Positions 22,329-49,594 of a stretch of DNA of 49,939 nucleotides are shown piece after piece. This DNA is from Zhenpiania hominis. Its GTDB lineage: Bacteria > Bacillota > Clostridia > Peptostreptococcales > Anaerovoracaceae. The first letter of the stretch is position 1, and each line of letters starts with the position of its first letter. The translations under genes and the position numbers were made by a program. Location: NCBI RefSeq assembly GCF_014333425.1, contig NZ_JACRYT010000025.1, positions 1-49,939 on the forward strand. Reading direction: 5' to 3'. Below the pieces are notes generated by a model that saw nothing but the letters and a program-made list of their open reading frames with translations, searched no databases and had not been told where the DNA came from.

Positions 22329-22332
22329 ATAA

Positions 22333-24507: not shown

Positions 24508-25077
24508 CTATCTAACTGTAACTCCTGCCGGAACTACTTGACCTGGCTTTATTTCCCTGTACTGAATTACTGTAGCATTTGCACCAATAAATGCGGCCTC
24601 TCCCACAGTTACCCGACCACACAAAATTGCTGCTACAGCAACGTGGGAAAAATCCTCAACCAGACATTCATGTTCTACTAAAGCCATGGTATTGATAATA
24701 ACCATTTTCCCAATTCGGGCTTCCGCATTTATAACTGCGCCTTTTCCAATGAAGCTTCCTTCTCCGATTTTCGCATTATCGGAAACCGTGGCTGATGGGT
24801 CAATGACAGGCGGAAACTCGAAGCCGATGTTCTTCAATGAATTATAAATTCGTTGGCGGGCATCCCCTTTTCCGAGATATCCAACACACACTGCAACATT
24901 TTTCACTCCATCCTTGTAATATTGTGTAAGCACATTATCTGTGCCTAAATACCGATACCTTGAAGAAACTTCTTCTACATCAGTATAACCAATAATACTA
25001 TATTTACCTTGTCTTTCTATGCAATCAGCAACACTCTTCGCGTGCCCACCATATCCAACCAAAATAATATCTTCCAT
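24508..25077 (-). CDS. legH: NeuD/PglD-type sugar N- or O-acetyltransferase (LegH role)
   Basis: A 189-residue protein. It has an N-terminal Rossmann-like sugar-binding part (ILVGYGGHAKSVADCI) and a C-terminal left-handed beta-helix of hexapeptide repeats (SATVSDNAKIGEGSFIGKGAVI onward). The catalytic-type histidine is in ALVEHECLVEDFSHVA. In this setting it should N-acetylate the 4-amino group made by LegC. O-acetylation of the finished acid is the alternative. It lies two bases after the guanylyltransferase gene. Confidence 0.83.
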   Translation of the reverse strand: MEDIILVGYGGHAKSVADCIERQGKYSIIGYTDVEEVSSRYRYLGTDNVLTQYYKDGVKNVAVCVGYLGKGDARQRIYNSLKNIGFEFPPVIDPSATVSDNAKIGEGSFIGKGAVINAEARIGKMVIINTMALVEHECLVEDFSHVAVAAILCGRVTVGEAAFIGANATVIQYREIKPGQVVPAGVTVR

Positions 25078-25079
25078 AC

Positions 25080-27330: not shown

Positions 27331-27366
27331 TTGGTTCCTCTTCACTTACTATTCCCCTTATATTAC

Positions 27367-28575: not shown

Positions 28576-29128
28576 AGTCTCCCTTGTATGATGTTGATAA
28601 AAGTGGAAACACCATATTTCCTTTCCTAATATTGTTGTTCAGGTTTAATTCATATATGACGGTCGCTGTCCATTTTTTCTGTAGCGTGCTACTCGAAATA
28701 GTGTTTATTATCTCTACCTTCTAATATGAAATATTTTTTGCTGGATGTATCTGTATATTCTCCTGAGTGCCTATTTCATTCAAATCTGCGATTATAATCT
28801 TTTATAAATATGTACCGCATTTTTAGCATTTATAAGTAGCAAAAACACCTCCAGGGAGGTGCTGACTATATTGATGTATAATAATTAAATCTAATACATT
28901 GCCAAAAGAACTTCCCACATCTGCTCCTGTTCCAGTACAATTGTAGACCTAACTCAAGGCTATACAGATAGAGATTGACATTATCAACGCTCTAGGCTTT
29001 ATTCAACATAATAAATGTTTTATTATCAGAATTCATTGTTGTGCCGAATAAATATCTGAATTCTTTTTTCTGAATATACTACATTAAGTCTCCTATGCAT
29101 CTGATAAGGAAAAGCGTACACTATTACA
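28576..29128. other. AT-rich gap between the ATP-grasp gene and the legionaminic cluster
   Basis: About 550 AT-rich bases with no credible gene. It contains one clear minus-strand terminator (28841-28861). The promoter for the legionaminic genes, if they have one, should lie between that terminator and 28575. A TATAAT-like box is present at 28791-28796 (minus strand) but without a good -35. The rest may be debris of past rearrangement. Confidence 0.4.
28841..28861 (-). terminator. Intrinsic terminator inside the variable cassette
   Basis: On the minus strand CACCTCC-CT-GGAGGTG forms a 7-bp GC-rich stem with a tiny loop followed by five T's. It is 265 bases past the ATP-grasp gene stop. It would separate the glycan-assembly genes from the legionaminic genes unless LoaP antitermination carries polymerase through. 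Confidence 0.65.
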
Positions 29129-30037
29129 TTAAAGTCCAGTTTTTCTGGCTTTCAATACCGTCAAGGCATTGTCGATTAAAACTGACGCTATATTAATTCC
29201 CTGTTTTTTAAAAAAAGGATATGCACTTCCTGTATATCCCGTAACTATAACTGAATTTAATTCCAAAACATATATCTCCTCAGAAACTATAAAATCTATT
29301 CTTACAAGCCCAAAGAAATGCAGTTTTCGAACAATTTCTTCAGCTATTCGACAAATTTCTCTTTCTTTTTCACACGTCATTTTTTTTGAATAAGCATTAT
29401 TGAATCCCCTTAATTTATACTCTTTGGCTTTGCTATAATATGTTACCCCCAAGCTTTTAATTATATTTCCATCGTTTACAACAGCTACTGTACAATCGTT
29501 CCCATCAATATATTCCTCTACTAATACTTTAGAATCCGCCCTTAAAACCTCCCTATTTACTAATTCTAATTCATTCATATTATTAATTTTGCAAGGTTGG
29601 AATTTATCAGAAGTGGATTTGAATACATACGGGAAAGATAGCTCTTTAATATCTTTAAATTTACTAATATCATTCGCCCAAAGTGTTTTTGGTGTATTAA
29701 TTCCCAACGCTTCCAGTTGTCTTTTAAACTTATATTTATCTTTTGCCATATTGCATTTCACTGGATCAATATTAAGAGAAATTCCCTTAGCAAGCAAATA
29801 TTCAGCTAATGTAAATGCAATTGTATGTCCTGTTCCAAAAATTACCTTACTAACTGAATGCAAGTCAAAAAAATTATATATTTCCTCGTGCCTTGACAGA
29901 TCTATAGCCAAACTGCAATCAGCTTCACTAAATCCGGGTTCATTCTTTTTGCCACAAACAATCGCTACAGAGTAATCTCTTTTGTGCAATTCATCTACCA
30001 ATGAATCCCCACTGCTTCCTGCTATTAATCCAATCAT
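29129..30037 (-). CDS. ATP-grasp domain ligase
   Basis: A 302-residue ATP-grasp protein. The N-terminal Rossmann-like part (GLIAGSSGDSLVDELHKRDY) is followed by the ATP-grasp core with KDKYKFKRQLEALGINTPKT, PYVFKSTSDKFQ, VLVEEYIDGNDCTV and LVRIDFIVSEEIYVLELNSV (metal-binding E/N). Such enzymes join a carboxylate to an amine via an acyl phosphate. In a polysaccharide locus it may attach an amino acid or build an amide substituent. The substrate is unknown. It lies 71 bases behind the glycosyltransferase-like gene. Confidence 0.78.
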   Translation of the reverse strand: MIGLIAGSSGDSLVDELHKRDYSVAIVCGKKNEPGFSEADCSLAIDLSRHEEIYNFFDLHSVSKVIFGTGHTIAFTLAEYLLAKGISLNIDPVKCNMAKDKYKFKRQLEALGINTPKTLWANDISKFKDIKELSFPYVFKSTSDKFQPCKINNMNELELVNREVLRADSKVLVEEYIDGNDCTVAVVNDGNIIKSLGVTYYSKAKEYKLRGFNNAYSKKMTCEKEREICRIAEEIVRKLHFFGLVRIDFIVSEEIYVLELNSVIVTGYTGSAYPFFKKQGINIASVLIDNALTVLKARKTGL

Positions 30038-30108
30038 TACTGTTTCTCCTTGACTTCTTGTACTTAATCAACAATCTATATTAAAGAACAGCTAATACTT
30101 TTCGAGCT

Positions 30109-31296
30109 CTAACATTGTTCTTTAATTACCGAACAAATATTTGCACTTGCATTTGAAACGAAATCAAATGCTTTACTGCTGAACATTAACTCTTTATATT
30201 CATCACTTGACTTATCAAGCAACAACCGAATTTCATTAAATAACTGTGATTTGTTTTCTGCCAAACATGCAATTCCCATTTCTATATACTCAATAGGATA
30301 TCTTTCTCGTTTAAATTTGATTTCAATCAAAGGAATTCCTTTGATTGCAGCTTCCATTCCAGTTGTCGAAAATGTAGTAATTACTAAATGTGCCACTTGC
30401 AAATAGTTTTTTGCAGGCTCTTTTTTTACCCATACATTCTTTTGATTAGATTTTTGAAAAGATTCCATTTGCTGGTTAGGATGTAGTTTTATAATAAATA
30501 AAACATTTTTCATTTGTTCTGCAATTTCATATATTGCATCAATTTCCTCAGTTTGGTTCTTCCCATTTTCGGCAAAAAAAACAACAGTATAATTATATTT
30601 TACTGCAGACTCCTTAAATTCAGTTATCCAGTTATTGTTTATTTTTTCATTTTCCTCAAAAATTGGCTGCCCTGTTACACGAATTTTTTTTTCGGGAACT
30701 CCTGCTTTCTGGATTGCATATGTTTTTGCCCATTCATTCATTACGCAAAGAATACAATCATGCTCTAGCTCGTTACATATCGGAAGGTCATTAACCCTTA
30801 CAACTGGTATATTCAATTTGTCAGCAGCTATTCCCGTTGCCATCTCCATTCGTGGACTTGCTGTAATAACGCAACAGTCAGGATTAATACATTGTAAAAT
30901 GTTTTCCATTGTTCCAATAGGAAGAAATGCCTTTCGCCCATCTTCTTCAAAGCGTTTCTTTGCTATTGTTGTTCCATACTTCTGAATGAGATCGTATATT
31001 CCTATTCCATAGTAAGCTACAGTATCCTCTAAGGATACACCTAACTGATAGTTATGGAATGGTGCCCCATATAACTTCCCCAATTTTTCCACTTCATCTC
31101 TGTAAGGTAACCACTCAAGAATATCACTAGCTGTAATATAGTTTATATCTGTTCCTTGTAACTGAAGCGGTGCAGATGTTAATGCCAGATATATAAGATC
31201 AACGTTTCTTTCTTTTCGTAGTTCATGATAAATACTCTTTATAATGTTAACATGCCCTCCTCCATAGGACACCATAAAAATCCTTTTCTTTTTCAT
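30109..31296 (-). CDS. GT-B-fold glycosyl/glycerophosphate transferase-like protein
   Basis: A 395-residue protein that opens with IFMVSYGGGHVNIIKSIYHEL, a nucleotide-sugar-type Rossmann start. Its C-terminal half has KKIRVTGQPIFEE, FIIKLHPNQQ, HLVITTFSTTGMEAAIKGIPLIEIKF and a late EMGIACLAENKS. The HPNQ and TTFSTTGMEA motifs are typical of GT-B enzymes related to CDP-glycerol transferases and polysialyl-like transferases. It is probably the transferase for a locus-specific sugar, perhaps legionaminic acid; that is inference. Confidence 0.72.
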   Translation of the reverse strand: MKKKRIFMVSYGGGHVNIIKSIYHELRKERNVDLIYLALTSAPLQLQGTDINYITASDILEWLPYRDEVEKLGKLYGAPFHNYQLGVSLEDTVAYYGIGIYDLIQKYGTTIAKKRFEEDGRKAFLPIGTMENILQCINPDCCVITASPRMEMATGIAADKLNIPVVRVNDLPICNELEHDCILCVMNEWAKTYAIQKAGVPEKKIRVTGQPIFEENEKINNNWITEFKESAVKYNYTVVFFAENGKNQTEEIDAIYEIAEQMKNVLFIIKLHPNQQMESFQKSNQKNVWVKKEPAKNYLQVAHLVITTFSTTGMEAAIKGIPLIEIKFKRERYPIEYIEMGIACLAENKSQLFNEIRLLLDKSSDEYKELMFSSKAFDFVSNASANICSVIKEQC

Positions 31297-31312
31297 AATC
31301 GTCTATCTTGTC

Positions 31313-31882
31313 TCAATATGCTCCTCTCCCTATCAAAGCTATAGAAATAGTTCTAGCTAAAATTTTCATATCCGTCATAAAAGAAATATCCTGGACATAT
31401 TGTTTCTCCCACTCTCTTTTCTGCGCTAATGTCAAACCGCTTCTTCCATACACCTGCGCATACCCACTAATTCCAGGTTTCACATTAAATATTCCTGATT
31501 TATAATCTGATTCTTTATAATTTTCAAAAACGCCCGGTCGAAAGCCAACAAAACTCATATCTCCTTTTAAAATATTAAAAATCTGCATAAGCTCATCTAA
31601 GCTTGTTTTTCTCAAAAATTTTCCTATAGGCGTGATGCGAGCGTCTCCCGCACTAGTTGATTTTGGTCCTATTCTTTCAGCATCTTTGACCATTGTTCTA
31701 AACTTATATATTTTAAACGGCCTTCCATACTGGCCTACCCTGCTCTGTATAAATAATATAGGAAATCCGTCGAAAATTAAAATTGCTCCAGAAATAAGAA
31801 GCAATATCCACCAAAACAGAATAAAAAATAAAAGTGCAAAAATAAAATCCAACAATCTTTTAAAATATTTCGAATATAGCAT
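31313..31882 (-). CDS. Initiating sugar-1-phosphate transferase (small PglC type)
   Basis: A 189-residue monotopic phosphoglycosyl transferase. It has one N-terminal membrane/re-entrant helix (about 8-35), then SRVGQYGRPFKIYKFRTMVKDAE, the catalytic DE pair in LRKTSLDELMQIFNILKGDMSFVGFRPG, and VKPGISGYAQVYGRSGL. It transfers a sugar-1-phosphate to undecaprenyl phosphate and so starts the repeat unit. The minimal size without extra TM domains matches PglC, which uses UDP-diNAc-bacillosamine; here the likely donor is a product of the CapD-type dehydratase branch. Confidence 0.9.
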   Translation of the reverse strand: MLYSKYFKRLLDFIFALLFFILFWWILLLISGAILIFDGFPILFIQSRVGQYGRPFKIYKFRTMVKDAERIGPKSTSAGDARITPIGKFLRKTSLDELMQIFNILKGDMSFVGFRPGVFENYKESDYKSGIFNVKPGISGYAQVYGRSGLTLAQKREWEKQYVQDISFMTDMKILARTISIALIGRGAY

Positions 31883-31909
31883 ACCTTATTCTCCGTTTTA
31901 TTTATGCTT

Positions 31910-33445
31910 CTAAAATTTTATACCTATCTTATTCCCAAATAACATTTTTATTTTAGATGTCTCTTCGATCCTCAATAAGATCAAAGAGAAAAAATATATA
32001 AAAGTGGTTATAACCACTTTTATAATTAGATTTACAACTGTTATATTCAAGTTGATAAGTCTGTTATTCAAAAGCACGACTATGATTACTAATATACTAA
32101 CCATTACTACCTTCACAAAAAATCCCCATAATTTTGTGATTCTAAATTCACCTATATTTGTTTTGATTGTTCTGCATGATATTATAGCTATAAAAACATA
32201 AGAAATGGTTGTTCCTAATGCTATCCCTATGACTCCCCAAAACCGTGACAATAGGATACTTCCTATTGAATTTATAATAACCCCAATAATTCCATTTATC
32301 ATTGCCTGCTTATTATTCTTGTATGCATAATGTACCCGTATTATGATGTCTCTAATTCCTAAAAAAACAAGACCTATACTATATGCACAAAATGCTAATG
32401 AAACATTCTGAGTTGCATTCGCATTAAAGGCACCTCTTTCATAAACAATTTTTACAATATCCGATGAATATCCAACAAAGAGAATTGTGATTAATGTAAG
32501 AACTAACGTTGAAAGTCTAATATATTTGTATATTGTTTTTATCAATAACTCTTCTCGTTTTTCTGTAACATAGGATGTAAAGTACGAAAAAATTACAGTA
32601 CATAAACCACCTATTAAAATGCTATGGGTAGTATTAAATAGATATCCACTATATGACAACGTGGAAACTCCCCCTACTGGCAAAGTTGATGCAACTGCTT
32701 TATCTACAATTCCTTGGATCTGTAAAATTCCATTGCTCACAAGCAGTGGAGCACTTATTTTTAGTAGATATTTGACTCTCTTATCCTGTGTGGGTCTATT
32801 CGGATGAAATCTAGTTTTTTTAACTATACATGTCAAAATGAAAATGCTCTCCAATATGTAATATGCTATAATCCCTATCATCATAGCATCAATTCCTAAT
32901 GTTTTCGAAAGTGTAACAATTGCAATTATGGTGCAAAAACTTCGTATGACTCCTACAAATTTTCCAGGGAAAAACATTTTTTCAGCCTCAAGTACAGCAT
33001 TGCATACATAATATATAAACATATTTATTAGAGTAAGGCTAAAGAGTTTGATATACTTTGAAACAATCTCACTGTCTTCAGAATTATAGCCTGGTGCAAT
33101 AATATATGCTATCTGATCCGAAAAAAATATAAATACCATTGTTAATATTACTATTATTGGGAATATTAACCAAAATGTATTCGAAATAAAGCGATTGCTT
33201 TCAATTCTTCCCTCTTTAAACAGCGTTTCTGTATATATCGTTAAAAATGTTATAGCAATGGCTGAGTAAACTGCCGCACCTAAATGTTCCATAGTTTCAG
33301 ATACTAGCAAAAATTTATCTATTTCACCAGATGTTCCAAAATAAGCTGCAATCACAGCCTGCTTAACGAAACCTATTAACTTTACTATCAGTAATGTTAA
33401 GATCACAATCTTAACAGAGTTTAAAATGCTTTTTTTTTCAGACAT
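31910..33445 (-). CDS. MurJ/MviN-type lipid-linked oligosaccharide flippase (Wzx role)
   Basis: A 511-residue protein with about 14 membrane segments. The start LIVKLIGFVKQAVIAAYFGTSGEIDKFLL is the MurJ-family signature, followed by the late VVRYAYKNNKQAMINGIIGVIIN-like loop. Chromosomal MurJ flips lipid II, but a copy inside a polysaccharide locus between polymerase and initiating transferase most likely exports the lipid-linked repeat unit. No separate Wzx is present. It overlaps the upstream gene by eight bases. Confidence 0.85.
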   Translation of the reverse strand: MSEKKSILNSVKIVILTLLIVKLIGFVKQAVIAAYFGTSGEIDKFLLVSETMEHLGAAVYSAIAITFLTIYTETLFKEGRIESNRFISNTFWLIFPIIVILTMVFIFFSDQIAYIIAPGYNSEDSEIVSKYIKLFSLTLINMFIYYVCNAVLEAEKMFFPGKFVGVIRSFCTIIAIVTLSKTLGIDAMMIGIIAYYILESIFILTCIVKKTRFHPNRPTQDKRVKYLLKISAPLLVSNGILQIQGIVDKAVASTLPVGGVSTLSYSGYLFNTTHSILIGGLCTVIFSYFTSYVTEKREELLIKTIYKYIRLSTLVLTLITILFVGYSSDIVKIVYERGAFNANATQNVSLAFCAYSIGLVFLGIRDIIIRVHYAYKNNKQAMINGIIGVIINSIGSILLSRFWGVIGIALGTTISYVFIAIISCRTIKTNIGEFRITKLWGFFVKVVMVSILVIIVVLLNNRLINLNITVVNLIIKVVITTFIYFFSLILLRIEETSKIKMLFGNKIGIKF

Positions 33446-34598
33446 TTATAGACCTTCTTAAATTATTATTGCGTCTTACTGTAAGAATTTTATTTATCCT
33501 GATCAACAGGAGTAGTAATAATGGTATTAGAATTATAGATCCGGTTGAAATTCCTACAAACAATCCATAAAAAGACAAATTACTTCCCAATATCAATGTG
33601 AGCGTACTACATTGAGTTCTGTATATTTTTATAATCATCATAATGTTTATGCTGAGCACAATTATTCCAATCATACACATTAATAGCGCAAAAGGCCCTG
33701 ACATTACTCCAAAAATTTTTCCCAGACCATGCTGCAGCAGGTTTAATAACTTTCCATCAAAATATGTGATATTTTTATTTATCATAAATATCACATATGC
33801 TATACCATTGTATATGAATCGAGAAAAAATTATACATATAATCAATAATCTAATTATTCCCCAACGTACTTTTCCCCAAGATCTATACTTCATAGTTCTC
33901 ATTACATATATTGTTACAATAAATCCTATAGACTCAACCATTATCCCACTACTCACAGTACATAGAAGAACACCTCCTAGCAGTTTTGCATATCGCTCAA
34001 ACCATCTACCAGGTTTGTCTATAAGGTAAAATACTGTCATTTCATATGTAAGAACTGCAAAACCTAAGAATGCAAAACTAACTCGTCCATTCATTACCGT
34101 ACATAAAATCACAATAAATATAAATACGATACAATTGCTTACGCCACTTCTTACTTTGTATATTTTCAAAATTAATGTCAAAAAATAGTATAATAACGCA
34201 AACACTATTGTACAATAATAGCTAAACGCTAAATTTAATTCTATATCAAAAAATTGTGACATAAGATATGATGGATATGCTATTAAGAGCCTTATTGCAT
34301 GTATGTGTCCTGTATCTATCCAAAACAGTACATTTTCATTCACTTTCAATAGCACATAGGCCTGTGGAATAAAATCGTACACAAAAATTTTTAAGTAAAC
34401 TCCACAGACTATGACTCCTTGCACTATACATGAGCAGACTTTATTAACCACGTCATTCTTTCCCCAAAAAATAAGTATCATCCCTATTGAAAGAGAAAAA
34501 AAACCACAACTGCTAATAAAACAGGCAATACATAGTAAACTCCATCCGATACAGATTATTATTATTCTATTTGATACATGTATTTTAAAATTTATCAT
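33438..34598 (-). CDS. Polytopic membrane protein, candidate Wzy-type polymerase
   Basis: A 386-residue, very hydrophobic protein with about ten membrane segments and few conserved sequence motifs. EpsG/Wzy polymerases have this nature and diverge fast. The position next to the flippase supports the role, and no other polymerase candidate exists in the locus. A soluble-looking stretch around GHIHAIRLLIAYPSYLMSQFFD (about 97-118) may be the periplasmic loop. Direct sequence proof is lacking. Confidence 0.6.
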   Translation of the reverse strand: MINFKIHVSNRIIIICIGWSLLCIACFISSCGFFSLSIGMILIFWGKNDVVNKVCSCIVQGVIVCGVYLKIFVYDFIPQAYVLLKVNENVLFWIDTGHIHAIRLLIAYPSYLMSQFFDIELNLAFSYYCTIVFALLYYFLTLILKIYKVRSGVSNCIVFIFIVILCTVMNGRVSFAFLGFAVLTYEMTVFYLIDKPGRWFERYAKLLGGVLLCTVSSGIMVESIGFIVTIYVMRTMKYRSWGKVRWGIIRLLIICIIFSRFIYNGIAYVIFMINKNITYFDGKLLNLLQHGLGKIFGVMSGPFALLMCMIGIIVLSINIMMIIKIYRTQCSTLTLILGSNLSFYGLFVGISTGSIILIPLLLLLLIRINKILTVRRNNNLRRSINV

Positions 34599-34653
34599 TA
34601 GCTATCTGCAAATTCTCCATCATTTAAATTTCTTACTGCCACCACAATTCAAA

Positions 34654-35484
34654 TTATCCTTCCCCTTCAATTTGTAAAACAATCTTTTGTACCATATTCG
34701 TAACTTTCTTTTTGTTATTATCAAGTTGTTTTTTAGAATAACGTTCTACCTCTTTTTCATAATTACGGAGAACCTCCATATTTGTTCGAAAGACATCGTC
34801 AACTAAGTTCAAATCATTCAGATCATTACTATTACAAAATGTCCTCGAAAGAATCGCACGTGTAGATCCCAGTCGATAATGCTCTTGGACAATATACTCC
34901 GCAGGTACTGCACCCGTTCCAATTCTAGCAATACCTCCGAATCCATATGGTAAGCCTTTAGAAGAAAATTTTTTGCAAAGCATCTCAACGACTCCATTTG
35001 TAAGCAATTCAAACATAAAAGAGAGTCCATAAGAAATATGTAAATCGTTTAACCCAATATGGATTTCACTAATTCCAGGAATATCTAAAACTTCATCCAC
35101 AATATCAACCGCTTCTTTTGTTTCCAGAAGAAGTACTGTTTTACTCCTCCCTGCCACGGCATGAATAAACGCCTTGACTTCCTCTATAGTCTTCCAATAT
35201 GGCAACATAATTAGATCCGCTCCAGCCGCAACAACTGCATTTATCTCTTCAATAGATCCTGCATGCCATTGATTAATTCTAACCAACATTTCCGATGTAG
35301 TCAGATGTCCTTTAATCTTTATAATGTCCTCCACCTTATGATTGGACTTAACTGAGTCAAAATTTTTTTGTCTTTCCTTTTTTCCCAGAGTTTCTAAATC
35401 AATCCAAATTCGATCTACACCATATTGTTGTGCAATGAGCGCTACATCAAGATTGTTCGTTATATACATCAATTTCAGTGACAT
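34654..35484 (-). CDS. HpcH/HpaI aldolase-like protein
   Basis: A 276-residue TIM-barrel protein of the HpcH/HpaI aldolase/citrate lyase family. GVDRIWIDLETLGKKERQ aligns with the family's substrate/metal strand, though the usual catalytic His position is Thr/Leu-like here (LET for MEH). Arg69 (MLVRIN), Glu121 (LLLETKEA) and Asp147 (IGLNDLH) fit the metal-binding residues. Members cleave or make 2-oxoacid aldols with pyruvate. In a glycan locus this is unusual. It may make or trim an unusual acidic sugar or act as a lyase-like decorating enzyme; substrate unknown. It follows the second NeuD-like gene by 14 bases. Confidence 0.75.
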   Translation of the reverse strand: MSLKLMYITNNLDVALIAQQYGVDRIWIDLETLGKKERQKNFDSVKSNHKVEDIIKIKGHLTTSEMLVRINQWHAGSIEEINAVVAAGADLIMLPYWKTIEEVKAFIHAVAGRSKTVLLLETKEAVDIVDEVLDIPGISEIHIGLNDLHISYGLSFMFELLTNGVVEMLCKKFSSKGLPYGFGGIARIGTGAVPAEYIVQEHYRLGSTRAILSRTFCNSNDLNDLNLVDDVFRTNMEVLRNYEKEVERYSKKQLDNNKKKVTNMVQKIVLQIEGEG

Positions 35485-35498
35485 TTTTTTACCTCATC

Positions 35499-36011
35499 TC
35501 AAAAAACAACTTCACCAGCCTCAAGTTTTTTACCCCTTTCAACTCTAGTCCCAGCTTTTACAATTGCTCCCGCATTTACATGGGAAAACTCGCCGATTTC
35601 TACATCATGATCAATAATTGCTCCCACAGAGATAATGCACCCTTTCCGGACAATCGAATTTGCATTTATAATTGCCTTTGGCTCCACTACAGTTCCAGCT
35701 TCAAGCGCAGCGCTTGGACTGATATACGCAGATGAATGAATTAAAACAGGTATAGAGAATCCCATTTCCTCTGCCTGTTTCAGCAATTGTTTTCTGATAG
35801 GATTGTTTCCAATCCCACAGAACACTTCACTGTAACAATTTCTGAATTTCTCCATATCAGTAATCGTTCCTATCGCGTTTTCTTCCTCATCGTCCAAGAA
35901 ATCTACAGTTTCGTAGACAGGAGTTCCATCAATACCTAAAATACTCAGCGCTACTTCCCGGACAACTTTGCCATGTCCGCCGGCGCCAAGTATCAGCAAT
36001 CTTTTTCCCAT
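35499..36011 (-). CDS. Second NeuD/PglD-like acetyltransferase
   Basis: A 170-residue protein. It has a Rossmann-like N-terminus (RLLILGAGGHGKVVREVALSIL), then left-handed beta-helix repeats (SSAYISPSAALEAGTVVEPKAII...) and the catalytic-type histidine in GAIIDHDVEIGEFSHVNAGA. It likely acetylates an amino sugar on its way to the glycan. Its closest pathway partner could be the CapD-type dehydratase upstream (diNAc-bacillosamine-like route), but no second aminotransferase is seen. It is the first gene of the cassette after LoaP. Confidence 0.8.
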   Translation of the reverse strand: MGKRLLILGAGGHGKVVREVALSILGIDGTPVYETVDFLDDEEENAIGTITDMEKFRNCYSEVFCGIGNNPIRKQLLKQAEEMGFSIPVLIHSSAYISPSAALEAGTVVEPKAIINANSIVRKGCIISVGAIIDHDVEIGEFSHVNAGAIVKAGTRVERGKKLEAGEVVF

Positions 36012-36079
36012 ACTTTGTATCCTCTAAGACTGTCCTCATAGGCACAGCATTGTGAATTTTAACAATAACCTTATTCTCC

Positions 36080-36586
36080 CTACCGTTTCTCCACAATCTC
36101 CAGTCCCACCTGCGTTTCCACCGTCCGGCCGAACATTTCCAGCTCCAGATAAGCCCGCCGCTTATGCCGGTCGATTCTCTTAATCAGACCTTCATTCCCC
36201 TTCAGCGGCCCCTCCCGGATAATAACCTGATCGTTTACAATAAGCCCCTTGGACATACCGACGACCTGTTCTTCTCTTCCAAATTCCAGCAGAAAATCAA
36301 CCTCTTCTTCTGTCAGCGGCACCACTTCATCACCGGTGCCAATCAGCTTTGTCAGACCCGTCACCCTTTTCAGCGCAAAGGGCAGACGCTCTTTCGCGTC
36401 GCTCACCAGGAACACATAGCCGGGGAACAAAATCCGCTGTTCCTTGTGCCACTTGCCCTGATAGCGCTTCATCTGCTCGTAATGAGGGATAAAGCATTTT
36501 TCCAGTATCTCCTTTTCAATCAGCTTTTCACACTGAAAGCGGATTTCTTCCTCTTTCCCGGTTCGGACCTGGATCACATACCACAT
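36080..36586 (-). CDS. loaP: LoaP-type NusG paralogue, transcription antiterminator
   Basis: A 168-residue NusG-family protein. The NGN domain opens MWYVIQVRTGKEEEIRFQCEKLI and contains FPGYVFLV. The C-terminal KOW domain has VNDQVIIREGPLKGNEGLIKRIDRHKRRAYLELEMFGR. LoaP proteins are known to promote read-through of terminators in long Bacillota operons for exopolysaccharides and natural products. ATG 36586 is chosen since GGAGG lies nine bases before it and NusG-type proteins start MWYV. It sits between the invariant dehydratase and the variable cassette, next to repeat copy B. It should permit full-length transcription of the genes downstream. Confidence 0.9.
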   Translation of the reverse strand: MWYVIQVRTGKEEEIRFQCEKLIEKEILEKCFIPHYEQMKRYQGKWHKEQRILFPGYVFLVSDAKERLPFALKRVTGLTKLIGTGDEVVPLTEEEVDFLLEFGREEQVVGMSKGLIVNDQVIIREGPLKGNEGLIKRIDRHKRRAYLELEMFGRTVETQVGLEIVEKR

Positions 36587-36659
36587 CGTGCTAATCCTCC
36601 GCCATTTGGATTCCCTTCGCAACACACCAACATTATCAACAATTCCGTTTTTCTACTAT

Positions 36660-37005
36660 TTGTTACTGACTTTTCAAGCCTTCCGGCACCTGTTTTTTGA
36701 AAAAGGGTGATTTTATCTGGCAGTACCCTTTTACGCCCCCTGAAAAGGTTGAAAAAATAGTAACAACCGATATCTTTTTTTAAATGTTTCTAAAAAGCGG
36801 GCCCGGGGCTCCAAAATCCGGCCCGCAGACGCACAAACAGAGTCAGAAAAAGAGCACAAACCTCAAAAAGGGCGCGCTTCGCCACCCCGGCCCCGCGGAT
36901 TCTCAAAAGAAATTCGGAAAATCCGTGGACTCCAGGTTAAAGCCTGCCCTTATAACACTCGACAATCTCAAACGCGGCAAAGCGACGATTTGAGATTGAG
37001 TCAAG
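36660..37005 (+). repeat. ~300-bp direct repeat, copy B (upstream side of the variable cassette)
   Basis: Same orientation as 16492-16790, with an extra ~60 bases at about 36800-36860. Its outer part can fold: TTGTTACTgacTTTTCAA...CC (from 36661) pairs with GGTTGAAAAaaTAGTAACAA (to 36767), enclosing a terminator-like hairpin on the minus strand (AAAGGGT/ACCCTTT then T-rich). A second hairpin, GGCG-AAGCG-CGCC followed by five T's, lies near 36867-36885. The last 40 bases are nearly identical to copy A and end in CAATCTCAAA/TTTGAGATTG. It separates the dehydratase gene from loaP. Confidence 0.8.
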
Positions 37006-37049
37006 CTTGTTCCTTTTCTTATCATATAGCAGCTGTCGCGGCCGTTTCG

Positions 37050-39035
37050 CTATACAATCGCTTTTACCGGCTGCAGCTCATCTTTTTCTTCCTGTCTGCG
37101 ACCTGCTGTTTTTCTGGTCTGTCTTCCCGCGCCTTCCCGCGTCTGGTAAGTCGGCACCATCTCATGAATCAATTCTTTGATCGAATCCGGATTATCGTAG
37201 ACGATGTCTTCCAGCCCTTCAATTTTTTTCAGGAATTTTTGCGGCAGACGCAGCGGCTGTCCAATAAAAATCAATTCGTTTCTGGTCCGTCTGAGACCTT
37301 CTTCTTTCATGAGAAGCTCTTCATAAAGTTTTTCGCCGGGCCGCAGGCCTGTATAAGTAATACGGATGTCTCCGTCCGGCACATGTCCGGAAAGGAGAAT
37401 CAGGTTCCGCGCCAATTCGTCGATTTTTACCGGTTTTCCCATATCCAGAACAAAGATTTCTCCATGAGACTGGTCCGCGTAGGCGCCAGCCTGCAATACC
37501 AGGGAAACCGCTTCCGGAATGGTCATGAAAAATCGGGTAATTTCCGGATGGGTTACCGTCACCGGGCCTCCCGCGGCGATCTGCTTTTTAAACAGCGGGA
37601 TCACGCTGCCGTTGCTTCCCAGCACATTTCCAAAGCGAACCGCTACAAAGGAAGTACGGGACTGCCTGTCCATAGCCTGCGCGATCATTTCGCACAGCCT
37701 CTTGGACGCGCCCATAATGTTGGTCGGATTCACAGCCTTGTCCGTGGAAATCAGGACAAAACGCGCGACGCCATAGTCGCTGGCCGCCCTGGCCGTTTCA
37801 TATGTACCCAGAACATTATTTTTTATCGCCTCATTGGGACTGTCCTCCATCAGCGGCACATGCTTGTGGGCTGCCGCGTGATAGACAACGTCCGGTCGAT
37901 AAGTGGCCATAATATGGCGCAGACGCTTTCTGTCCCTCACAGAACCGATCAGTACCTTCAAGTTCAGTTCCGGATTATGCCATTTCAGCTCCTGCTGAAT
38001 GTCATACGCGTTATTTTCATAAATGTCGAGCAAAATCAGCTGTTTTGGACTGTACTGCGCGACCTGTCTTGCCAGTTCACTACCGATGGAGCCGCCGCCT
38101 CCTGTGATCAGAACCGTTTTTCCTTCCAGGTAGCTGCCTACTTCCTTCATGTCAATCAGTACCGGCTCTCGGCCCAAAAGTTCCTCCACGGATACATCCC
38201 GCAGCTGGCTCAGCCTTGCCTTGCCATTTAAAATCTGAGAAATGCCCGGCAGGATTTTCAGTTCACAGCCGGTTTCCTTGCAAATATCCAGGATTTCTTT
38301 TCTCTGGCGAGCCTTTGCCGATGGAATCGCGACAATGATCTGATCGATCCGATAAACCCTCGCCATTTCGGGAATATCCCGCCGATTTCCCACAATTGGA
38401 ATCTGATTGATCATTCTTCCTTTTTTATTGGGATTGTCATCAATCACACAGCATGCCTTTGAGCGGCGCGGCTTTGTCACGCTCAGCTCACGAATCAGCA
38501 TTCGACCCGCTTCACCGGCGCCGACAACCATCACTCTGCTCAGATTCCCTTTCTTCATTTCCGCGAGATAGCCTTTCCAGACGCGCAGCGCCCGATATGA
38601 AAAGCGCATCCCGCAGATCGCCAGGAACTGCAGAAATACACCCACCACGTAATAGCTGATCGGCATTCTCTCAAAGAAAAGGCAGGTCCCTCCGATCTGC
38701 GCCCCAAGAGTCAGAAGCGACGCGATTCCCACGCGCCCCAGTTCGTTAAAGCTGATAAATCGCCATACACTATGATACAGCTTCAGAACATAAAAAATAC
38801 AGATTGTGATGATAGTAAAAAACGGCGCGAACTGCAGCCACGAATGAAGATATTCACGTGGGATCATGGAAAAATGCAGGTCGAACCTGAGCCATAGGGC
38901 CAGTCCATATGCCGCGTTCACCGTAATAGAATCATAAATCATCATTAACAAAGCAACTTTCATCCATTTATGCAGATGAAATGTTGCTTTTCCCTCAATC
39001 TCTTCTGTAATTGTATCTTCTGATTTTTTACTCAT
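37050..39035 (-). CDS. Membrane NDP-sugar 4,6-dehydratase/epimerase (CapD/FlaA1-PglF type)
   Basis: A 661-residue protein. It has four N-terminal membrane segments (about 20-140), a first nucleotide-binding domain (VMVVGAGEAGRMLIREL, about 155-280) and a catalytic short-chain dehydrogenase domain. The latter shows VLITGGGGSIGSELARQV (about 300), AAHKHVPLMEDSP and STDKAVNPTNIMGASKRLCE. PglF/CapD-type enzymes convert UDP-GlcNAc to the 4-keto-6-deoxy sugar that starts the repeat unit. ATG 39035 is preferred; the longer frame runs through the promoter's operator and a G12 tract. That G tract, eight bases before the ATG, is the only Shine-Dalgarno candidate. It is the first gene of the locus. Confidence 0.9.
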   Translation of the reverse strand: MSKKSEDTITEEIEGKATFHLHKWMKVALLMMIYDSITVNAAYGLALWLRFDLHFSMIPREYLHSWLQFAPFFTIITICIFYVLKLYHSVWRFISFNELGRVGIASLLTLGAQIGGTCLFFERMPISYYVVGVFLQFLAICGMRFSYRALRVWKGYLAEMKKGNLSRVMVVGAGEAGRMLIRELSVTKPRRSKACCVIDDNPNKKGRMINQIPIVGNRRDIPEMARVYRIDQIIVAIPSAKARQRKEILDICKETGCELKILPGISQILNGKARLSQLRDVSVEELLGREPVLIDMKEVGSYLEGKTVLITGGGGSIGSELARQVAQYSPKQLILLDIYENNAYDIQQELKWHNPELNLKVLIGSVRDRKRLRHIMATYRPDVVYHAAAHKHVPLMEDSPNEAIKNNVLGTYETARAASDYGVARFVLISTDKAVNPTNIMGASKRLCEMIAQAMDRQSRTSFVAVRFGNVLGSNGSVIPLFKKQIAAGGPVTVTHPEITRFFMTIPEAVSLVLQAGAYADQSHGEIFVLDMGKPVKIDELARNLILLSGHVPDGDIRITYTGLRPGEKLYEELLMKEEGLRRTRNELIFIGQPLRLPQKFLKKIEGLEDIVYDNPDSIKELIHEMVPTYQTREGAGRQTRKTAGRRQEEKDELQPVKAIV

Positions 39036-39043
39036 AAATAACA

Positions 39044-39055
39044 CCCCCCCCCCCC
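39044..39055 (-). repeat. G12 homopolymer at the ribosome-binding site
   Basis: Twelve consecutive G's on the coding strand end eight bases before the dehydratase start codon, in the place of the Shine-Dalgarno sequence. Tracts this long are prone to slipped-strand length change and transcriptional slippage. Confidence 0.8.
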
Positions 39056-39086
39056 GCAAAATTTGCCATACTAGGGCAGGTAAGTC

Positions 39087-39135
39087 TAGTTTAGTATATC
39101 TAAACCAATTATACCGCAAGAATCCCTAAAGTCAA
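39087..39135 (-). promoter_or_regulatory. Main promoter of the polysaccharide operon with operator
   Basis: On the minus strand TTGACT (39130-39135) and TATAAT (39108-39113) are 16 bases apart. Directly after the -10 lies TTGGTTTA-N7-TAAACTA (39087-39108), containing the perfect half-sites GTTTAG/CTAAAC. The predicted start site falls inside this operator, so bound protein should block initiation. The same arrangement occurs at 39481-39529. Confidence 0.72.
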
Positions 39136-39233
39136 CGAAAACTCCCCATTTTTTTCAAGAAAAAAGTCAAAGTGTCACGAATGGTCTCTAAAATGTAACC
39201 AATGGCGCGAACACTGTTTTTCTCACCCCGTTG

Positions 39234-39458
39234 TCATTTACATTTCTGAAAAAAATATTCAGGAATGGATTCCGGCGGGAGCTTCAGCACATTTTCAACC
39301 AGAATACTGATTTCCCGCTGTGTGAACTCCTCCTGGTTATTAAGTTTTAATAAATAATTTCTCTCCGGAATTTCCAGAATTTCCGCTACGTCTTTTGAAG
39401 AAAACCCTTTGTCGAAAATCGCCTTGATCAAATTTGAATAGTCGAAAATATACAGCAT
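39234..39458 (-). CDS. Small phage-repressor-like HTH protein
   Basis: A 74-residue protein with an XRE/DUF739-like helix-turn-helix: LIKAIFDKGFSSKDVAEILEIPERNYLLKLNNQEEFTQREISILVENVLKLPPESIPEYFF. The C-terminal EYFF-type end is typical of the small phage regulator group. No other domain is present. Its own promoter holds an operator almost identical to that of the polysaccharide promoter 300 bases downstream, so it is the best candidate repressor of both. A canonical ribosome site AAAGGAAAA precedes the ATG. Confidence 0.75.
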   Translation of the reverse strand: MLYIFDYSNLIKAIFDKGFSSKDVAEILEIPERNYLLKLNNQEEFTQREISILVENVLKLPPESIPEYFFQKCK

Positions 39459-39480
39459 AATTCCCTTTTCCTTTGCATAA

Positions 39481-39529
39481 TAGTTCAGATATTATAAACC
39501 AATTATACTAAAACGGATCGGAAAGTCAA
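39481..39529 (-). promoter_or_regulatory. Promoter and operator of the small HTH gene
   Basis: TTGACT (39524-39529) and TATAAT (39502-39507) are 16 bases apart on the minus strand. TTGGTTTA-N7-TGAACTA (39481-39502) follows the -10 in the same position and spacing as the operator of the polysaccharide promoter. A CGGATC/GATCCG inverted repeat (39514-39536) also spans the -35. Confidence 0.7.
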
Positions 39530-39580
39530 TGATCCGGTAGTTAAATTGCCCAGGGCAGCGAAAAGCTTCTCCCTAAAATA

Positions 39581-39609
39581 TTGATGTTTTTGGAGATTGA
39601 TATTATAAT
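39581..39609 (+). promoter_or_regulatory. Promoter of the S24-like repressor/HipA-like kinase operon
   Basis: TTGATG (39581-39586) and TATAAT (39604-39609) are 17 bases apart on the plus strand. The divergent HTH promoter lies about 50 bases upstream. No copy of the TTGGTTTA operator is seen here. Confidence 0.6.
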
Positions 39610-39632
39610 TAGGAAAGGACTCAGCGGAGGAT

Positions 39633-40211
39633 ATGGTAGTGGAAAAAACAGCATTTGCAAACCGGCTTCGGTTCATTCTGGAAGAAAAAAATATGCGGCA
39701 GATCGACCTCTGCCAGAAAACGGGCATCGGCAAAAGCGCGATGAGTCAGTATCTGCGAGGTTCTTTTGAGCCAAAACAGCAAAACCTCCACGCTCTCGCT
39801 GAAGTTTTGGGCGTTTCTGAAGCCTGGCTCATGGGATACGATGTACCCCGAAACAAGAAGATCGTTACGCGTGATGATGAGGCAGAAAACCACGGTCCAC
39901 TACAGCAGCTTCCTGGTTCTTTTTATTTTACCGCTCCCGACAATAGCATGATCAATGCCCACATTCCAAAGGGCGCGGTCGTCGTCATCCAAAAGCAGCC
40001 CCTGGAAAATCTCCAAAACGGCGATATTGTGCTGCTATCGCGAAGGGATGAGGGCGAATCCTGTCTGAGATTTTTTTATCAGGACGCGGAAACTTTATTT
40101 TTCAGTCCGGCAAACCCGGACGTTTTACCCTTTACATATAGGCTCTCGGACTTAACGGAAAACCGGCTGCAAATTGACGGCGTTGCCCGCCAGGCAATGC
40201 TGACGCTGTAG
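39633..40211 (+). CDS. HTH-XRE repressor with S24/LexA-like domain
   Basis: A 192-residue protein. The XRE HTH occupies about 6-68 (FANRLRFILEEKNMRQIDLCQKTGIGKSAMSQYLRGSFEPKQQNLHALAEVLGVSEAWLMGYD). A C-terminal S24-like fold (about 95-190) shows the serine position in PDNSMINAHIPKGAVVVI (Ser105) and NGDIVLL. The catalytic lysine expected about 35-40 residues later is not present (LSRRDEGESCLRFFY), so self-cleavage is doubtful. Start may be ATG 39633 or GTG 39639; the GGAGG at 39626-39630 is better spaced for the GTG. It is followed by a HipA-like kinase gene. Confidence 0.82.
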   Translation: MVVEKTAFANRLRFILEEKNMRQIDLCQKTGIGKSAMSQYLRGSFEPKQQNLHALAEVLGVSEAWLMGYDVPRNKKIVTRDDEAENHGPLQQLPGSFYFTAPDNSMINAHIPKGAVVVIQKQPLENLQNGDIVLLSRRDEGESCLRFFYQDAETLFFSPANPDVLPFTYRLSDLTENRLQIDGVARQAMLTL

Positions 40212-40252
40212 AGCAAAAAAATTGGAGGAACAAAATCAGAGCAGGTGAAGGT

Positions 40253-41428
40253 ATGGCGAATTATTACTATTTAATGAATAAAGAGGAAAAGGTCCTCTTA
40301 TTTAGAGAGATCCAGGATCGGTACGGGGAATCGTTTTTTGAAAACTGCGAAAGATACCATGCTCCCCTGCCTGTCAGCCTGCAGGGAATTCCGAATCAGC
40401 ATATCGGTTCCTGGTTGCAGCAGCGAAAGGTCCCCAGTCATCGCAGGCATATTAAAAAGCTGCTCGATCAGCTTGGAATGACGAATTTACAGGGGTACAT
40501 TGATTTGAGCCACGCCACCAGCTTAAACGATACTTTCTGGGTAAAAAAAGCGGACTCGGATATTCGGTGGCCGGATGTTTCTCTTTATTGCAATCCTTTT
40601 GACGACGTTGTTGCTCAAATTGCCTTTGATGGGATTCTATCTGACTTTCACTTTTCTTCCCCCTCGCCTGAATTTAGTACAGATGGGGCCTATGCAAAAT
40701 GCTGGAAGCGAGAGAAAGACGGAAATATTTATTTAATCAAACGGGGCAACGAAGCCTTCGGGCAGCCCGGATGCGAGCCTTATTCCGAGTATTACGCGGC
40801 ACAAATCGCAGAAATCCTATGCCCAAAGCGCATTCCTTACGATCTGGAGCCAGCCGCAGCACCTGAGTTAAACCGCGGCAAAAGCATCCCGAATTCTCTG
40901 GAAGTCGTCTCCAAATGCAGGTTATTCACATCGGAGCAGATCGGTTTTCTTCCTTTTGCAAAGCTTCCAGGAGAGTATCACTACCTCAGTCAAATTGAAG
41001 ATGTTTATAAACAGTATCACTGCCTGGAGGAATTCAGGCGCATGATCGTCCTGGACGCTGTCATTTTGAATACGGATCGGCATCAGGGGAATCACGGATT
41101 TTTTATAGATAACGCTGCACAAGAAATTCTTGGGATGGCTCCGGTATTCGATCATAACCAAAGCCTGCTTTCCGATTTGACAAACGATCAATTCTGGCAG
41201 GAAGCGGACTTGCGCGTCTCTACGAAAGCGCCAAAGCTGGGAATCGATTTTATAAAAACCGCCGCCCGGATGCTCACGCCGGAAATCGCAGAAGATCTGA
41301 AACATTTGTTTGACTTCCATTTCAAACGTCATCCCCTTTATAATTTGCCGGAAGATCGGCTGCAAAAGCTGGAACAGATTGTTGCGAATCAGGCTTCGCA
41401 AATTTTGTCCTGTTATGATTCCATGTAA
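40253..41428 (+). CDS. HipA-like kinase domain protein
   Basis: A 391-residue protein of the HipA/CtkA-like kinase fold. The N-terminal ~90 residues are unassigned. SHATSLNDTFWVKK (86-99) matches the nucleotide loop of this family. The catalytic loop is LNTDRHQGNHGFF (272-284; Asp275, Asn280) and the metal-binding motif APVFDHNQS (296-304; Asp300). HipA kinases phosphorylate translation components and are toxins kept in check by an HTH partner. Here the partner would be the S24-like repressor 40 bases upstream. Whether it is a toxin or a regulatory kinase is not shown. AGGTGAAGGT precedes the ATG. Confidence 0.78.
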   Translation: MANYYYLMNKEEKVLLFREIQDRYGESFFENCERYHAPLPVSLQGIPNQHIGSWLQQRKVPSHRRHIKKLLDQLGMTNLQGYIDLSHATSLNDTFWVKKADSDIRWPDVSLYCNPFDDVVAQIAFDGILSDFHFSSPSPEFSTDGAYAKCWKREKDGNIYLIKRGNEAFGQPGCEPYSEYYAAQIAEILCPKRIPYDLEPAAAPELNRGKSIPNSLEVVSKCRLFTSEQIGFLPFAKLPGEYHYLSQIEDVYKQYHCLEEFRRMIVLDAVILNTDRHQGNHGFFIDNAAQEILGMAPVFDHNQSLLSDLTNDQFWQEADLRVSTKAPKLGIDFIKTAARMLTPEIAEDLKHLFDFHFKRHPLYNLPEDRLQKLEQIVANQASQILSCYDSM

Positions 41429-41432
41429 AAAA

Positions 41433-41475
41433 GACCAGGCGCCGTATTTTACACACCAGCGTCCGGTCTTTTCTT
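41433..41475. terminator. Bidirectional terminator between converging operons
   Basis: AAAAGACC-AGGCG ... CGTCC-GGTCTTTT forms a long stem with A's before and T's after. It sits right after the HipA-like gene stop (plus) and downstream of the nitroreductase gene (minus). Confidence 0.8.
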
Positions 41476-41524
41476 TTATCCATTCTATTGCTGCTTCGCA
41501 ATCAGACTCAGCAGCCTGCCGGTC

Positions 41525-47902: not shown

Positions 47903-49105
47903 TTATCTAAGCATATATTTTTGCAAATCCTGTCGCCGTTTAATGTGCAGTTTCTGTAACGCCATAGACACGTAATGTTTCACTGTGTTAGGCGAAATAC
48001 TCATATGCTCGCTAATCTCCTGATTCGTCCATCCCCGGGCAGCGAGCATAGCTACGGCAAACTCACTGGTAGTCAGATTATCAGCTACATCATGCCCTGT
48101 ATCCGGATTATGCACTTTTCTCCAGCCTGCGGAGAACCGATATGTTATCTCAATAATCCGCTTGAACTCTTCCGGCCATCTCTTTTTGATAACCGCCTCC
48201 AGCATTCCACCCAAAAGCCCATGATGCTCCCCAAAACCTTCGATCAAATCATCGGGCCTCGCCAGATCCCATGCGGCCAACAGATGCTCCCTCGCCTGTT
48301 CGGGCTGTTTGAGACTCATGTAATCCATTACCGCTACCAGGTGCAAATAAATAGCGGGGATCGGATACTTCTCCTGCTGCATAGCGAGGGTTGTTTCTAC
48401 AATACCGACGCTTTTCCCATATTCCTTCTTCAAATAAGTATAATGGGCCTGCACATAAAAAGCGAACGCCTGAAGTCCCGGCGGCAGCAGTGGCAGATAA
48501 GTTTGAAGCGGCGACAGTTTTTCCGGCAGGGGCAGATGCAGCAGGACCGCTCCAGCGGCCGCGCAGAAGGCCTTAGCCGCCCCGATCTGCGGAACCGCTT
48601 CCGAATTAATGTCCTCCATATTACGTCTCATTTCATTCAGTGCATATCTTGCTCGTGAGATTTGTCCGAGAGAAAGATTGGCATAAGAATAGATTAGGCA
48701 GCCCGAAAGACGAATTTCCATATTCGGATGCGCCAGATATCTCCCTGTCTCAATAACCGCCCTCTCTGGCTGTCCGCTGAAATAGTGGTATTCAGCAAGG
48801 GCAATGTCTTTCCGCGGACCGTCTTCCATCGCTTCAATCATTTTCACACAACTCCCCGGTTTAAAGGCTGTGTTCATAAGGGGCATAAGCTCCATACAAA
48901 AATGGATCTCCGATCCGCTTTTTGTATGGTTTTCCTTCTTTTTCACGCTTTGAGAAATGTCCGGCTTTTCCGCGCATTGAGGAATACCCCAGGACACTCC
49001 GAATTTTCTGACGCCCTCAATTTTCCCTTCCGCACAGTATTTCTGCACCATTCGCTCTGAAATCTTCCATTTACCCGCCGCTTCCCGCACAGTCATATAC
49101 TCCAT
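47903..49105 (-). CDS. Hybrid regulator: excisionase-type HTH at N-terminus, LuxR HTH at C-terminus
   Basis: A 400-residue protein. The N-terminal HTH_17-like segment MTVREAAGKWKISERMVQKYCAEGKIEGVRKFGVSWGIP is followed by a helical middle resembling TPR/MalT-type repeats (about 70-310: MIEAMEDGPRKDIALAEYHYFSGQPERAVIETGRYL, with several paired helices). The LuxR HTH is LTTSEFAVAMLAARGWTNQEISEHMSISPNTVKHYVSMALQKL (about 340-385). Two DNA-binding domains on one chain suggest looping or dual site recognition, though the N-terminal one may contact protein instead. Start is ATG 49105, or the adjoining GTG 49108. It is monocistronic. Confidence 0.82.
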   Translation of the reverse strand: MEYMTVREAAGKWKISERMVQKYCAEGKIEGVRKFGVSWGIPQCAEKPDISQSVKKKENHTKSGSEIHFCMELMPLMNTAFKPGSCVKMIEAMEDGPRKDIALAEYHYFSGQPERAVIETGRYLAHPNMEIRLSGCLIYSYANLSLGQISRARYALNEMRRNMEDINSEAVPQIGAAKAFCAAAGAVLLHLPLPEKLSPLQTYLPLLPPGLQAFAFYVQAHYTYLKKEYGKSVGIVETTLAMQQEKYPIPAIYLHLVAVMDYMSLKQPEQAREHLLAAWDLARPDDLIEGFGEHHGLLGGMLEAVIKKRWPEEFKRIIEITYRFSAGWRKVHNPDTGHDVADNLTTSEFAVAMLAARGWTNQEISEHMSISPNTVKHYVSMALQKLHIKRRQDLQKYMLR

Positions 49106-49594
49106 CACAATGCTCTCCCAGATTTCGTTTACTGTATATTATTATATTCGTTTTGCCAAACCTTTTCAATGGCAGGAAAGGAAACGCAAGGGTATCGTCC
49201 GGAGGATTGAGGATGCCGCCGCGCCACCGCGCGAACAAATCACAAAAAATCGTCCCCGCATGCCGCTGCACGCGAACAAACCCCAGAGCTTAGAAGCAAT
49301 ATTTGCGCTTTTCCTTCCATACTCTGCGTAATTTTTAGAAATGAGCCGCGCTCCGGCTAAAATCCGCACTTCCCATTCCCCCTTTCCCCCCAATGGTCGC
49401 GCCTTGCGCCCTTCCATATTCTTTATTTCTGAAATGTTCGCGCTTTCGCCGCTGCCGGAAAAGTACCGGGAGGTGGCACGCTAATGGCACGGTTTTTGAG
49501 GAAAAAAGGGCATCAGGAAAGGTTATTGGAAGAAATTCAAAAAACAGAGAAACCGCTGAAACCCCGAAAATTCAACAGTTCCAACGGTTTTACC
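49106..49594. other. Intergenic stretch between the LuxR-type regulator and tRNA-Arg
   Basis: About 490 bases with no credible gene; open frames on both strands lack ribosome sites and family-like sequence. A weak terminator-like hairpin AAACCG...CGGTTT with a T-rich tail on the minus strand lies near 49541-49590, just past the tRNA 3' end. The regulator's promoter must lie near 49110-49180 but no clear box pair is seen. Confidence 0.4.

Follow-up and report, generated by a model that had tools for sequence, protein, structure and literature searches.

Phages TP901-1 and phi13, of Lactococcus and Staphylococcus respectively, carry compact immunity switches in which a repressor, CI, is paired with a small DUF739 protein, MOR. 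A CI/MOR fragment of less than 1 kb gives rise to two inherited states (PMC7250872), as does a 1.3-kb phi13 switch whose reporter plasmids have already been run in Bacillus subtilis (PMC8516035). The CI protein of phi13 retains both catalytic residues of the self-cleaving type, and that of TP901-1 carries a different C-terminal domain (PMC8516035). A functional parallel comes from B. subtilis itself, where a repressor and a sequestering antagonist of the SinR/SlrR/SinI system set a self-reinforcing, inherited state of the eps operon (PMC4238804). Here we describe a 49,939-base stretch of Zhenpiania hominis DNA (contig NZ_JACRYT010000025.1; hereafter the window, to which alone all site counts and ranks refer), in which a mor-like gene and a divergent cI-like gene adjoin the start of a polysaccharide locus whose first gene is capD-like. 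We propose, with a probability of roughly three in four, that this is a domesticated TP901-1-type CI/MOR phage immunity switch, probably bistable and SOS-independent.

The preliminary description of this DNA had pointed to two minus-strand promoters of the form TTGACT-16-TATAAT, each with the same motif downstream, and this proved accurate. An exact TTGGTTTA-N7-TRAACTA occurs twice on the minus strand, at the two operator positions of Table 1, and both copies are directly preceded, at identical offset, by TTGACT-16-TATAAT; no third exact match was found anywhere in the window. The composite from TATAAT onward, TATAATTGGTTTA-N7-TRAACTA, was present in 2 copies vs 0 in 300 dinucleotide shuffles. 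The core GTTYA-N7-TRAAC alone was found twice; the shuffles held 0.23 on average, and two copies were reached in 9 of the 300. With 3 mismatches allowed, the motif was at chance level (4 observed vs 3.4 expected), so that the exactness and position of the two copies carry the evidential weight. On the plus strand the shared site reads as the near-palindrome (A/G)GTT(C/T)A-N7-T(A/G)AAC(C/T). A weight matrix built solely from viral switch operators (79, with duplicates counted) placed these sites first and second in the window, with 21.1 and 19.0 bits, followed at 16.8 bits by a site with a spacing of 8. Between 39000 and 39700, nothing besides the two operators scored above 0.02 bits with this matrix; a 10/12 operator match inside mor at 39310 was discounted at this same score of 0.02 bits.

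The 74-residue phage-type protein reported at one of these promoters was confirmed as an open reading frame (ORF). Its product matched the DUF739 family (E 2.4e-8, 34.4 bits, cut-off 27), and the sole significant match in a PDB sequence search was TP901-1 MOR (E 2.6e-6). An AlphaFold2 model made from 40 aligned sequences (mean predicted local distance difference test, pLDDT, of 89.9) returned from Foldseek a single match at E ≤ 1e-3, the MOR chain 6tri_B, with a template-modelling (TM) score of 0.90 on the target and a root-mean-square deviation (rmsd) of 1.4. Matches to PHROGs were weak (best E 0.06), and an NCBIfam search gave zero matches. A tblastn search of a phage collection with the 74-residue protein yielded 112 records (E ≤ 0.1), led by Streptococcus phages (42%) and with TP901-1 mor at 38%. 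More specifically, the aromatic residues Y3, Y5, W43 and F67 that form the pocket of TP901-1 MOR (PMC11149083) align with F5, Y7, F45 and F70, which were kept in 11/11 aligned MOR rows, and residues E32 and K38 of the MOR recognition-helix motif (PMC7250872) are retained. Homology and modelling together strongly suggest that the protein is a member of the MOR-type antirepressor family and not a general repressor. Among database homologues, two MOR variants close to that of the window (P0002 and P0005) have a divergent, frame-shift-like C-terminal end (39234-39290); these altered termini could be real variants or sequencing errors.

The divergent gene next to it, absent from the preliminary description, encodes a protein in which both the HTH_3 and Peptidase_S24 domains of Pfam scored above cut-off. 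The two genes are separated by 174 bases and both reading frames are intact; most aligned homologues of the CI-like protein begin two codons later, at a GTG at 39639. The top match in a PDB sequence search was the N-terminal domain of TP901-1 CI in 6tri (E 3.4e-13), the same crystal of the CI:MOR complex whose MOR chain matched the model of the 74-residue protein. In the structural model (pLDDT 82.8, predicted TM score 0.53), TP901-1 CI (5a7l) superposed with a TM score of 0.76 on the target, an rmsd of 1.5 and 41% identity. Residues Q55, E69 and M73, which TP901-1 CI places at the MOR interface (PMC11149083), align with Q49, E63 and M67, so that by alignment the CI:MOR interface residues have equivalents in both proteins of the window. 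The peptide SEAWLMGYDVP was invariant among 20/20 aligned CI homologues. Relatives of the CI-like protein were also found in 11 plasmid records: that of Monoglobus is prophage-like (integrase, DUF739), and the 16 kb inspected there carry no glycan gene annotation, and a Fusobacterium record is unannotated around its match.

The operators of viral switches were compared in the best 80 of 158 CI relatives, gathered with the patterns VSEAWLM and TGIGKSAM, one of which belongs to the MOR interface. A divergent DUF739 gene lay upstream of CI in 73/80 of these loci, at no more than 400 bp in 58, and the removal of identical MOR proteins left 50 of the 58 switch regions, 36 kb in total. These contained 36 GTTYA-N7-TRAAC sites vs 5 in 572 kb outside, and the base-shuffled regions held 0.23 on average. 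Among the other spacings, 6 accounted for 26 sites and 3, 4, 5 and 8-11 together for 9; the corresponding figures outside the switch regions were 3 for spacing 6 and 15 for the remaining spacings together. Several viral sites read GTTTAG-N5-CTAAAC, resembling the glycan site of the window. In TP901-1, GTTCA-N7-TGAAC is found immediately ahead of mor and again at its end, and a one-change copy lies between the genes. The half-site consensus of phi13 CI, reported with CI gel shifts, is AGTTCAYR (PMC8516035), and the operator of the window is of the same kind. The shared site is a predicted CI-type operator, and it is likely that the CI-like protein reads it. The site at the mor promoter of the window, with half-sites 7 apart, corresponds in this respect to OL of the phage switches. 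The second does not lie in distal mor as OD does; it is found beyond mor, 125 bases from the stop codon, on a promoter. This placement sets the locus apart: promoters of at least 10/12 accompanied 20/30 viral mor-start operators, 1/35 mor-end operators and 2% of random pieces, and TP901-1 itself scored 11/12 at the mor start and 8/12 at the mor end, whereas the window has 11/12 at both operators, the distal one included.

These results bear on the regulator that had first been suggested. The 74-residue protein could in principle act alone as a Cro-like autorepressor, reading both operators and turning the glycan operon down; its model has a helix-turn-helix (HTH)-type helical fold, its gene lies between both sites with one of them on its own promoter, and the two recognition-helix residues named above are kept. 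We consider this quite improbable: operators of this form in phage switches are of the CI type, and the neighbouring gene encodes a CI-like protein. What stands of the local repressor circuit proposed earlier is a phage-derived local circuit that shares its operator with the glycan promoter; the assignment of the 74-residue protein as the repressor of that site was not supported, and the divergent CI-like protein is the likelier reader.

Self-cleaving LexA/S24 repressors rely on a Ser-Lys pair, of which the CI-like protein has Ser105 but carries Arg146 in the Lys column, placed via a profile match to LexA 3k2z. The extent of this change was followed in a midpoint-rooted tree of 133 CI rows, comprising the window, 110 of 120 listed database homologues (437 found) and 22 viral sequences (31 loci tried, 22 with a long enough CI frame, some identical). 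Overall, the catalytic column held Arg in 81 rows and Lys in 50, with 2 unreadable. The starred clade of the window (100/99) comprised 85 rows, with all 81 Arg, 2 Lys (P0077, P0083) and 2 unreadable, while the viral rows had Lys in 22/22, all outside this clade. Its named members with Arg include Anaerovorax odorimutans and Zhenpiania hominis, both of the Anaerovoracaceae. Because the catalytic Lys has been lost, SOS independence is expected; self-cleavage during SOS should not flip the switch any more, and another input would be needed, for which a HipA-like kinase encoded downstream is a candidate. A gap of 41 bases separates the cI-like gene from the HipA-like gene, which is probably cotranscribed with it, and a scan of viral contigs with the HipA-like protein found no relative. 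The kinase could provide an input to the switch, or it could pair with the CI-like protein in the manner of a toxin-antitoxin system.

The proteins scanned around the pair were of chromosomal type. Among these flanking proteins (ten with PHROGs, ten with Pfam), which include a nitroreductase, a MocR/GntR-type regulator, 2-oxoacid ferredoxin oxidoreductase subunits and a LuxR-type regulator, no integrase or structural phage gene was found. The PHROGs families matched were nitroreductase, ferredoxin, epimerase, antiterminator and HTH, besides some of unknown function; the HTH matches included a weak one of excisionase type, in the LuxR-like protein at 47903-49108. That both proteins of the pair have phage relatives would also fit a decaying prophage remnant beside the glycan locus, its shared promoter-operator being a leftover without a glycan role. 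Against this stand the intact reading frames, the flanks just described with their single weak excisionase-type match, and the capD promoter itself, which bears an operator, unlike the mor-end operators of phages; together with the linkage reported below, they make such a remnant highly improbable.

Linkage in relatives was approached through contig sizes, the protein database giving the longest contig per cluster, so that equal sizes could be compared between proteins. CapD ranks 5, 6, 8 and 12, on contigs of 16273, 31753, 12737 and 12582, matched CI homologues P0020, P0036, P0023 and P0040, respectively, and MOR homologues shared sizes 11855 and 16273 with CapD ranks 3 and 5. As a control, CapD sizes shifted by 1-60 either way gave a mean of 0.16 CI matches (maximum 1) vs 5 observed (>5 kb); the fifth match (7425, CapD rank 54) was discounted as a probable coincidence, since its CI partner P0112 is of the Lys type. 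One CI/CapD pair carries the identical source name, bacterium 210820-DFI.6.37. The remaining top-12 CapD clusters had no shared size and may be either unlinked or represented by another contig as the longest. The shared sizes point to continued linkage of the CI, MOR and CapD homologues in several relatives, even where CI identity has dropped to 44%.

The identities of the two proteins, their divergent layout, the type and spacing of the operators, the promoter-operator geometry and the Lys-to-Arg change are all apparent from the sequence. Based on these features, we propose the following mechanism for a domesticated CI/MOR switch. In the OFF state, the CI-like repressor would sit on the GTTYA-N7-TRAAC operators and silence both the mor-like gene and the capD promoter. 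In the ON state, the MOR-like protein would bind the N-terminal domain of the CI-like protein and lift it off the operators; mor and capD would then be transcribed together, and mor would keep itself on. The outcome would be a heritable ON/OFF setting of the glycan locus, probably bistable by analogy with the phage switches. The step that put the glycan genes under the switch may have been the gain, at the distal operator, of an 11/12 promoter reading into capD.

Several observations weigh against this proposal. The main one, as far as a full copy of the phage mechanism is concerned, is that no OR-like operator was found between the divergent promoters, the region 39500-39632 containing no CI-type site of at least 10/12, on the cI-like promoter or elsewhere, while TP901-1's own OR fits 11/12 counted positions (hand count). 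The strict pattern places few viral sites between the divergent genes (2/68), and a degenerate OR would escape it. Since no OR-like site was found, and OM was not searched, cI autoregulation and a composite OM-OR of the TP901-1 type are not visible, and bistability may work differently or be absent. In addition, R57 of TP901-1 CI, whose change to Lys gives clear plaques (PMC7250872), aligns with N51 and is therefore changed in the CI-like protein. LexA structures lead the Foldseek list of the CI-like model, with TP901-1 CI at rank 27, although this order is expected because the protein has two domains. In the viral switch regions spacing 6 was nearly as frequent as 7 (26 vs 36), and a site of either spacing was present in 33/50 regions and in none of the other 17/50. 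The pairing in 73/80 viral loci is not an unbiased sample, because one collecting pattern is part of the MOR interface. Lastly, the MOR protein had no relative in either of two scans of genome contigs, and for this reason the linkage in relatives rests on equal contig sizes; a scan of viral contigs with it was likewise negative.

Part of this evidence would suit a simple, non-bistable repressor, in which the CI-like protein represses mor and capD until an external cue relieves it and MOR only tunes the response; the cue could come from the HipA-like kinase or from a ligand bound by the S24 domain, and a CI/HipA toxin-antitoxin-like pair is a variant. The short distance to the HipA-like gene, the replacement of the catalytic Lys in an otherwise kept S24 fold and the lack of a detected OR for mutual repression all agree with it. 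It accounts less readily for the conservation, among the relatives found, of the MOR partner and its interface residues, and the published CI/MOR fragments show two inherited states (PMC7250872, PMC8516035). We judge it unlikely, noting that it differs from the domesticated switch solely in bistability and that the odds of the two overlap. Overall, the switch of the window appears to be derived from the TP901-1 switch and probably works like it, but it is not counted as a full member of this type because OR was not found.

Table 1. Features of the predicted switch and of the adjoining genes, in window coordinates.
Feature	Position	Strand	Remarks
OL-like predicted operator on mor promoter	39481..39502	-	AGTTCA-GATATTA-TAAACC on +; exact motif; matrix rank 2
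OD-like predicted operator on capD/glycan promoter	39087..39108	-	AGTTTA-GTATATC-TAAACC on +; exact motif; matrix rank 1
mor promoter TTGACT-16-TATAAT	39502..39529	-	11/12 consensus
capD/glycan promoter TTGACT-16-TATAAT	39108..39135	-	11/12 consensus; reads into capD
cI-like promoter TTGATG-17-TATAAT	39581..39609	+	10/12 consensus
mor-like gene, 74-aa DUF739 protein (antirepressor/modulator type)	39234..39458	-	Pfam PF05339 and MOR matches
cI-like gene, 192-aa XRE HTH and S24/LexA-type domain	39633..40211	+	divergent from mor-like gene
HipA-like kinase gene	40253..41428	+	HipA_C E 6e-6, below cut-off; PADLOC PDC-M03A E 6e-13
G12 tract in mRNA (C12 on +)	39044..39055	-	Shine-Dalgarno position, 8 nt before capD ATG
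capD/pglF-like gene, first of glycan locus	37050..39035	-	Polysacc_synt_2 E 9e-121
loaP antiterminator gene	36080..36625	-	NCBIfam NF033641 191 bits, cut-off 125

Control by the switch could reach beyond capD, perhaps over the whole glycan operon of about 30 kb that the preliminary description had placed under it. The next gene, loaP, encodes an antiterminator of a family whose genes often adjoin polysaccharide or secondary-metabolite operons (PMC12691694). The gap between the two genes (36626-37049, 424 bases) is structured (fold z -2.24); a scan of it revealed no minus-strand promoter and no terminator at a loop limit of 8, and by eye only, two GC-rich terminator-like hairpins ending in U5 were noted. 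We infer that LoaP might be made by read-through from capD and then keep the rest of the locus open, and the gap may be a place of attenuation relieved by LoaP. Further into the locus, genes for a nonulosonic (sialic-acid-like) acid lie at 21645-27345, with NeuB, NeuC and LegC over cut-off and a PseF-like protein below it, and the far end carries a tyrosine autokinase and a chain-length-like gene.

A further feature was seen at the ribosome-binding region of capD, where the G12 tract is the only C or G run of at least 9 in the window, which has no A or T run of at least 10; it is a candidate site of slippage, through which capD translation could vary. Within the glycan locus, a short ORF (21009-21347) matches a PADLOC TIR effector profile, and its start codon is overlapped by the spacing-8 CI-like site at 21341-21360 (16.8 bits), which was weighed as a third operator and not accepted. 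The locus also encodes a protein with AAA-ATPase_like and PDDEXK_9 matches (16860-18635). Two Rfam matches at up to E 1 in 28500-41500 were far below the gathering score and were taken as chance.

The capsule phase variation known from gut bacteria mostly proceeds by DNA inversion or slipped strands. If the proposal is true, the switch would make the coat vary from cell to cell in another way, through a memory without DNA change, and two subpopulations would be predicted within one clonal culture. The path from phage to host regulator would then consist of a new promoter at the distal operator and the loss of the SOS trigger, with the CI:MOR interface retained. More broadly, Anaerovoracaceae-like Clostridia may have co-opted a CI/MOR switch as a heritable, DNA-sequence-independent ON/OFF control of the capsule, through the distal-operator promoter and a clade-wide loss of SOS cleavage, with the G12 tract and LoaP as additional layers; we put this forward tentatively, as a possibility somewhat short of even odds. 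No title describing a CI/MOR switch on a glycan locus was found among the matches listed in open-licence literature.

Compared with TP901-1 and phi13, the locus shares the combination of a CI-type N-terminal domain with a DUF739/MOR protein, and a GTTCA-N7-TGAAC-type operator at the mor promoter with a second operator downstream; its divergent cI/mor arrangement has a gap of 174 bases, against 168 in TP901-1. It differs in that no phage genes occur among the flanks scanned, in that its distal operator, beyond mor, has its own strong promoter into capD, and in that no OR site was found. The CI-like protein, with Arg for Lys, is unlike phi13 CI with its two catalytic residues and TP901-1 CI with its other C-terminal domain (PMC8516035).

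As is often the case for loaP genes, loaP here lies at a polysaccharide locus, directly after capD; LoaP antitermination, known from polysaccharide and polyketide operons, acts on elongation, whereas the shared operator concerns initiation upstream. No DUF739 protein is known to take part in the SinR/SlrR switch, and SinR was not named among the 9 and 27 PDB sequence matches of the CI-like protein, although this is a weak test. The earlier remark that no described regulator of this type was known for such a locus passes over the SinR/SlrR switch on B. subtilis eps, a functional analogue (PMC4238804). Since repressor-antagonist switches on exopolysaccharide operons are already known, the one in the window is not a new kind of switch. 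With its repressor-antagonist pair at an exopolysaccharide operon, SinR/SlrR/SinI (PMC4238804) is the closest functional analogue of the locus, whose own switch comes from another switch family.
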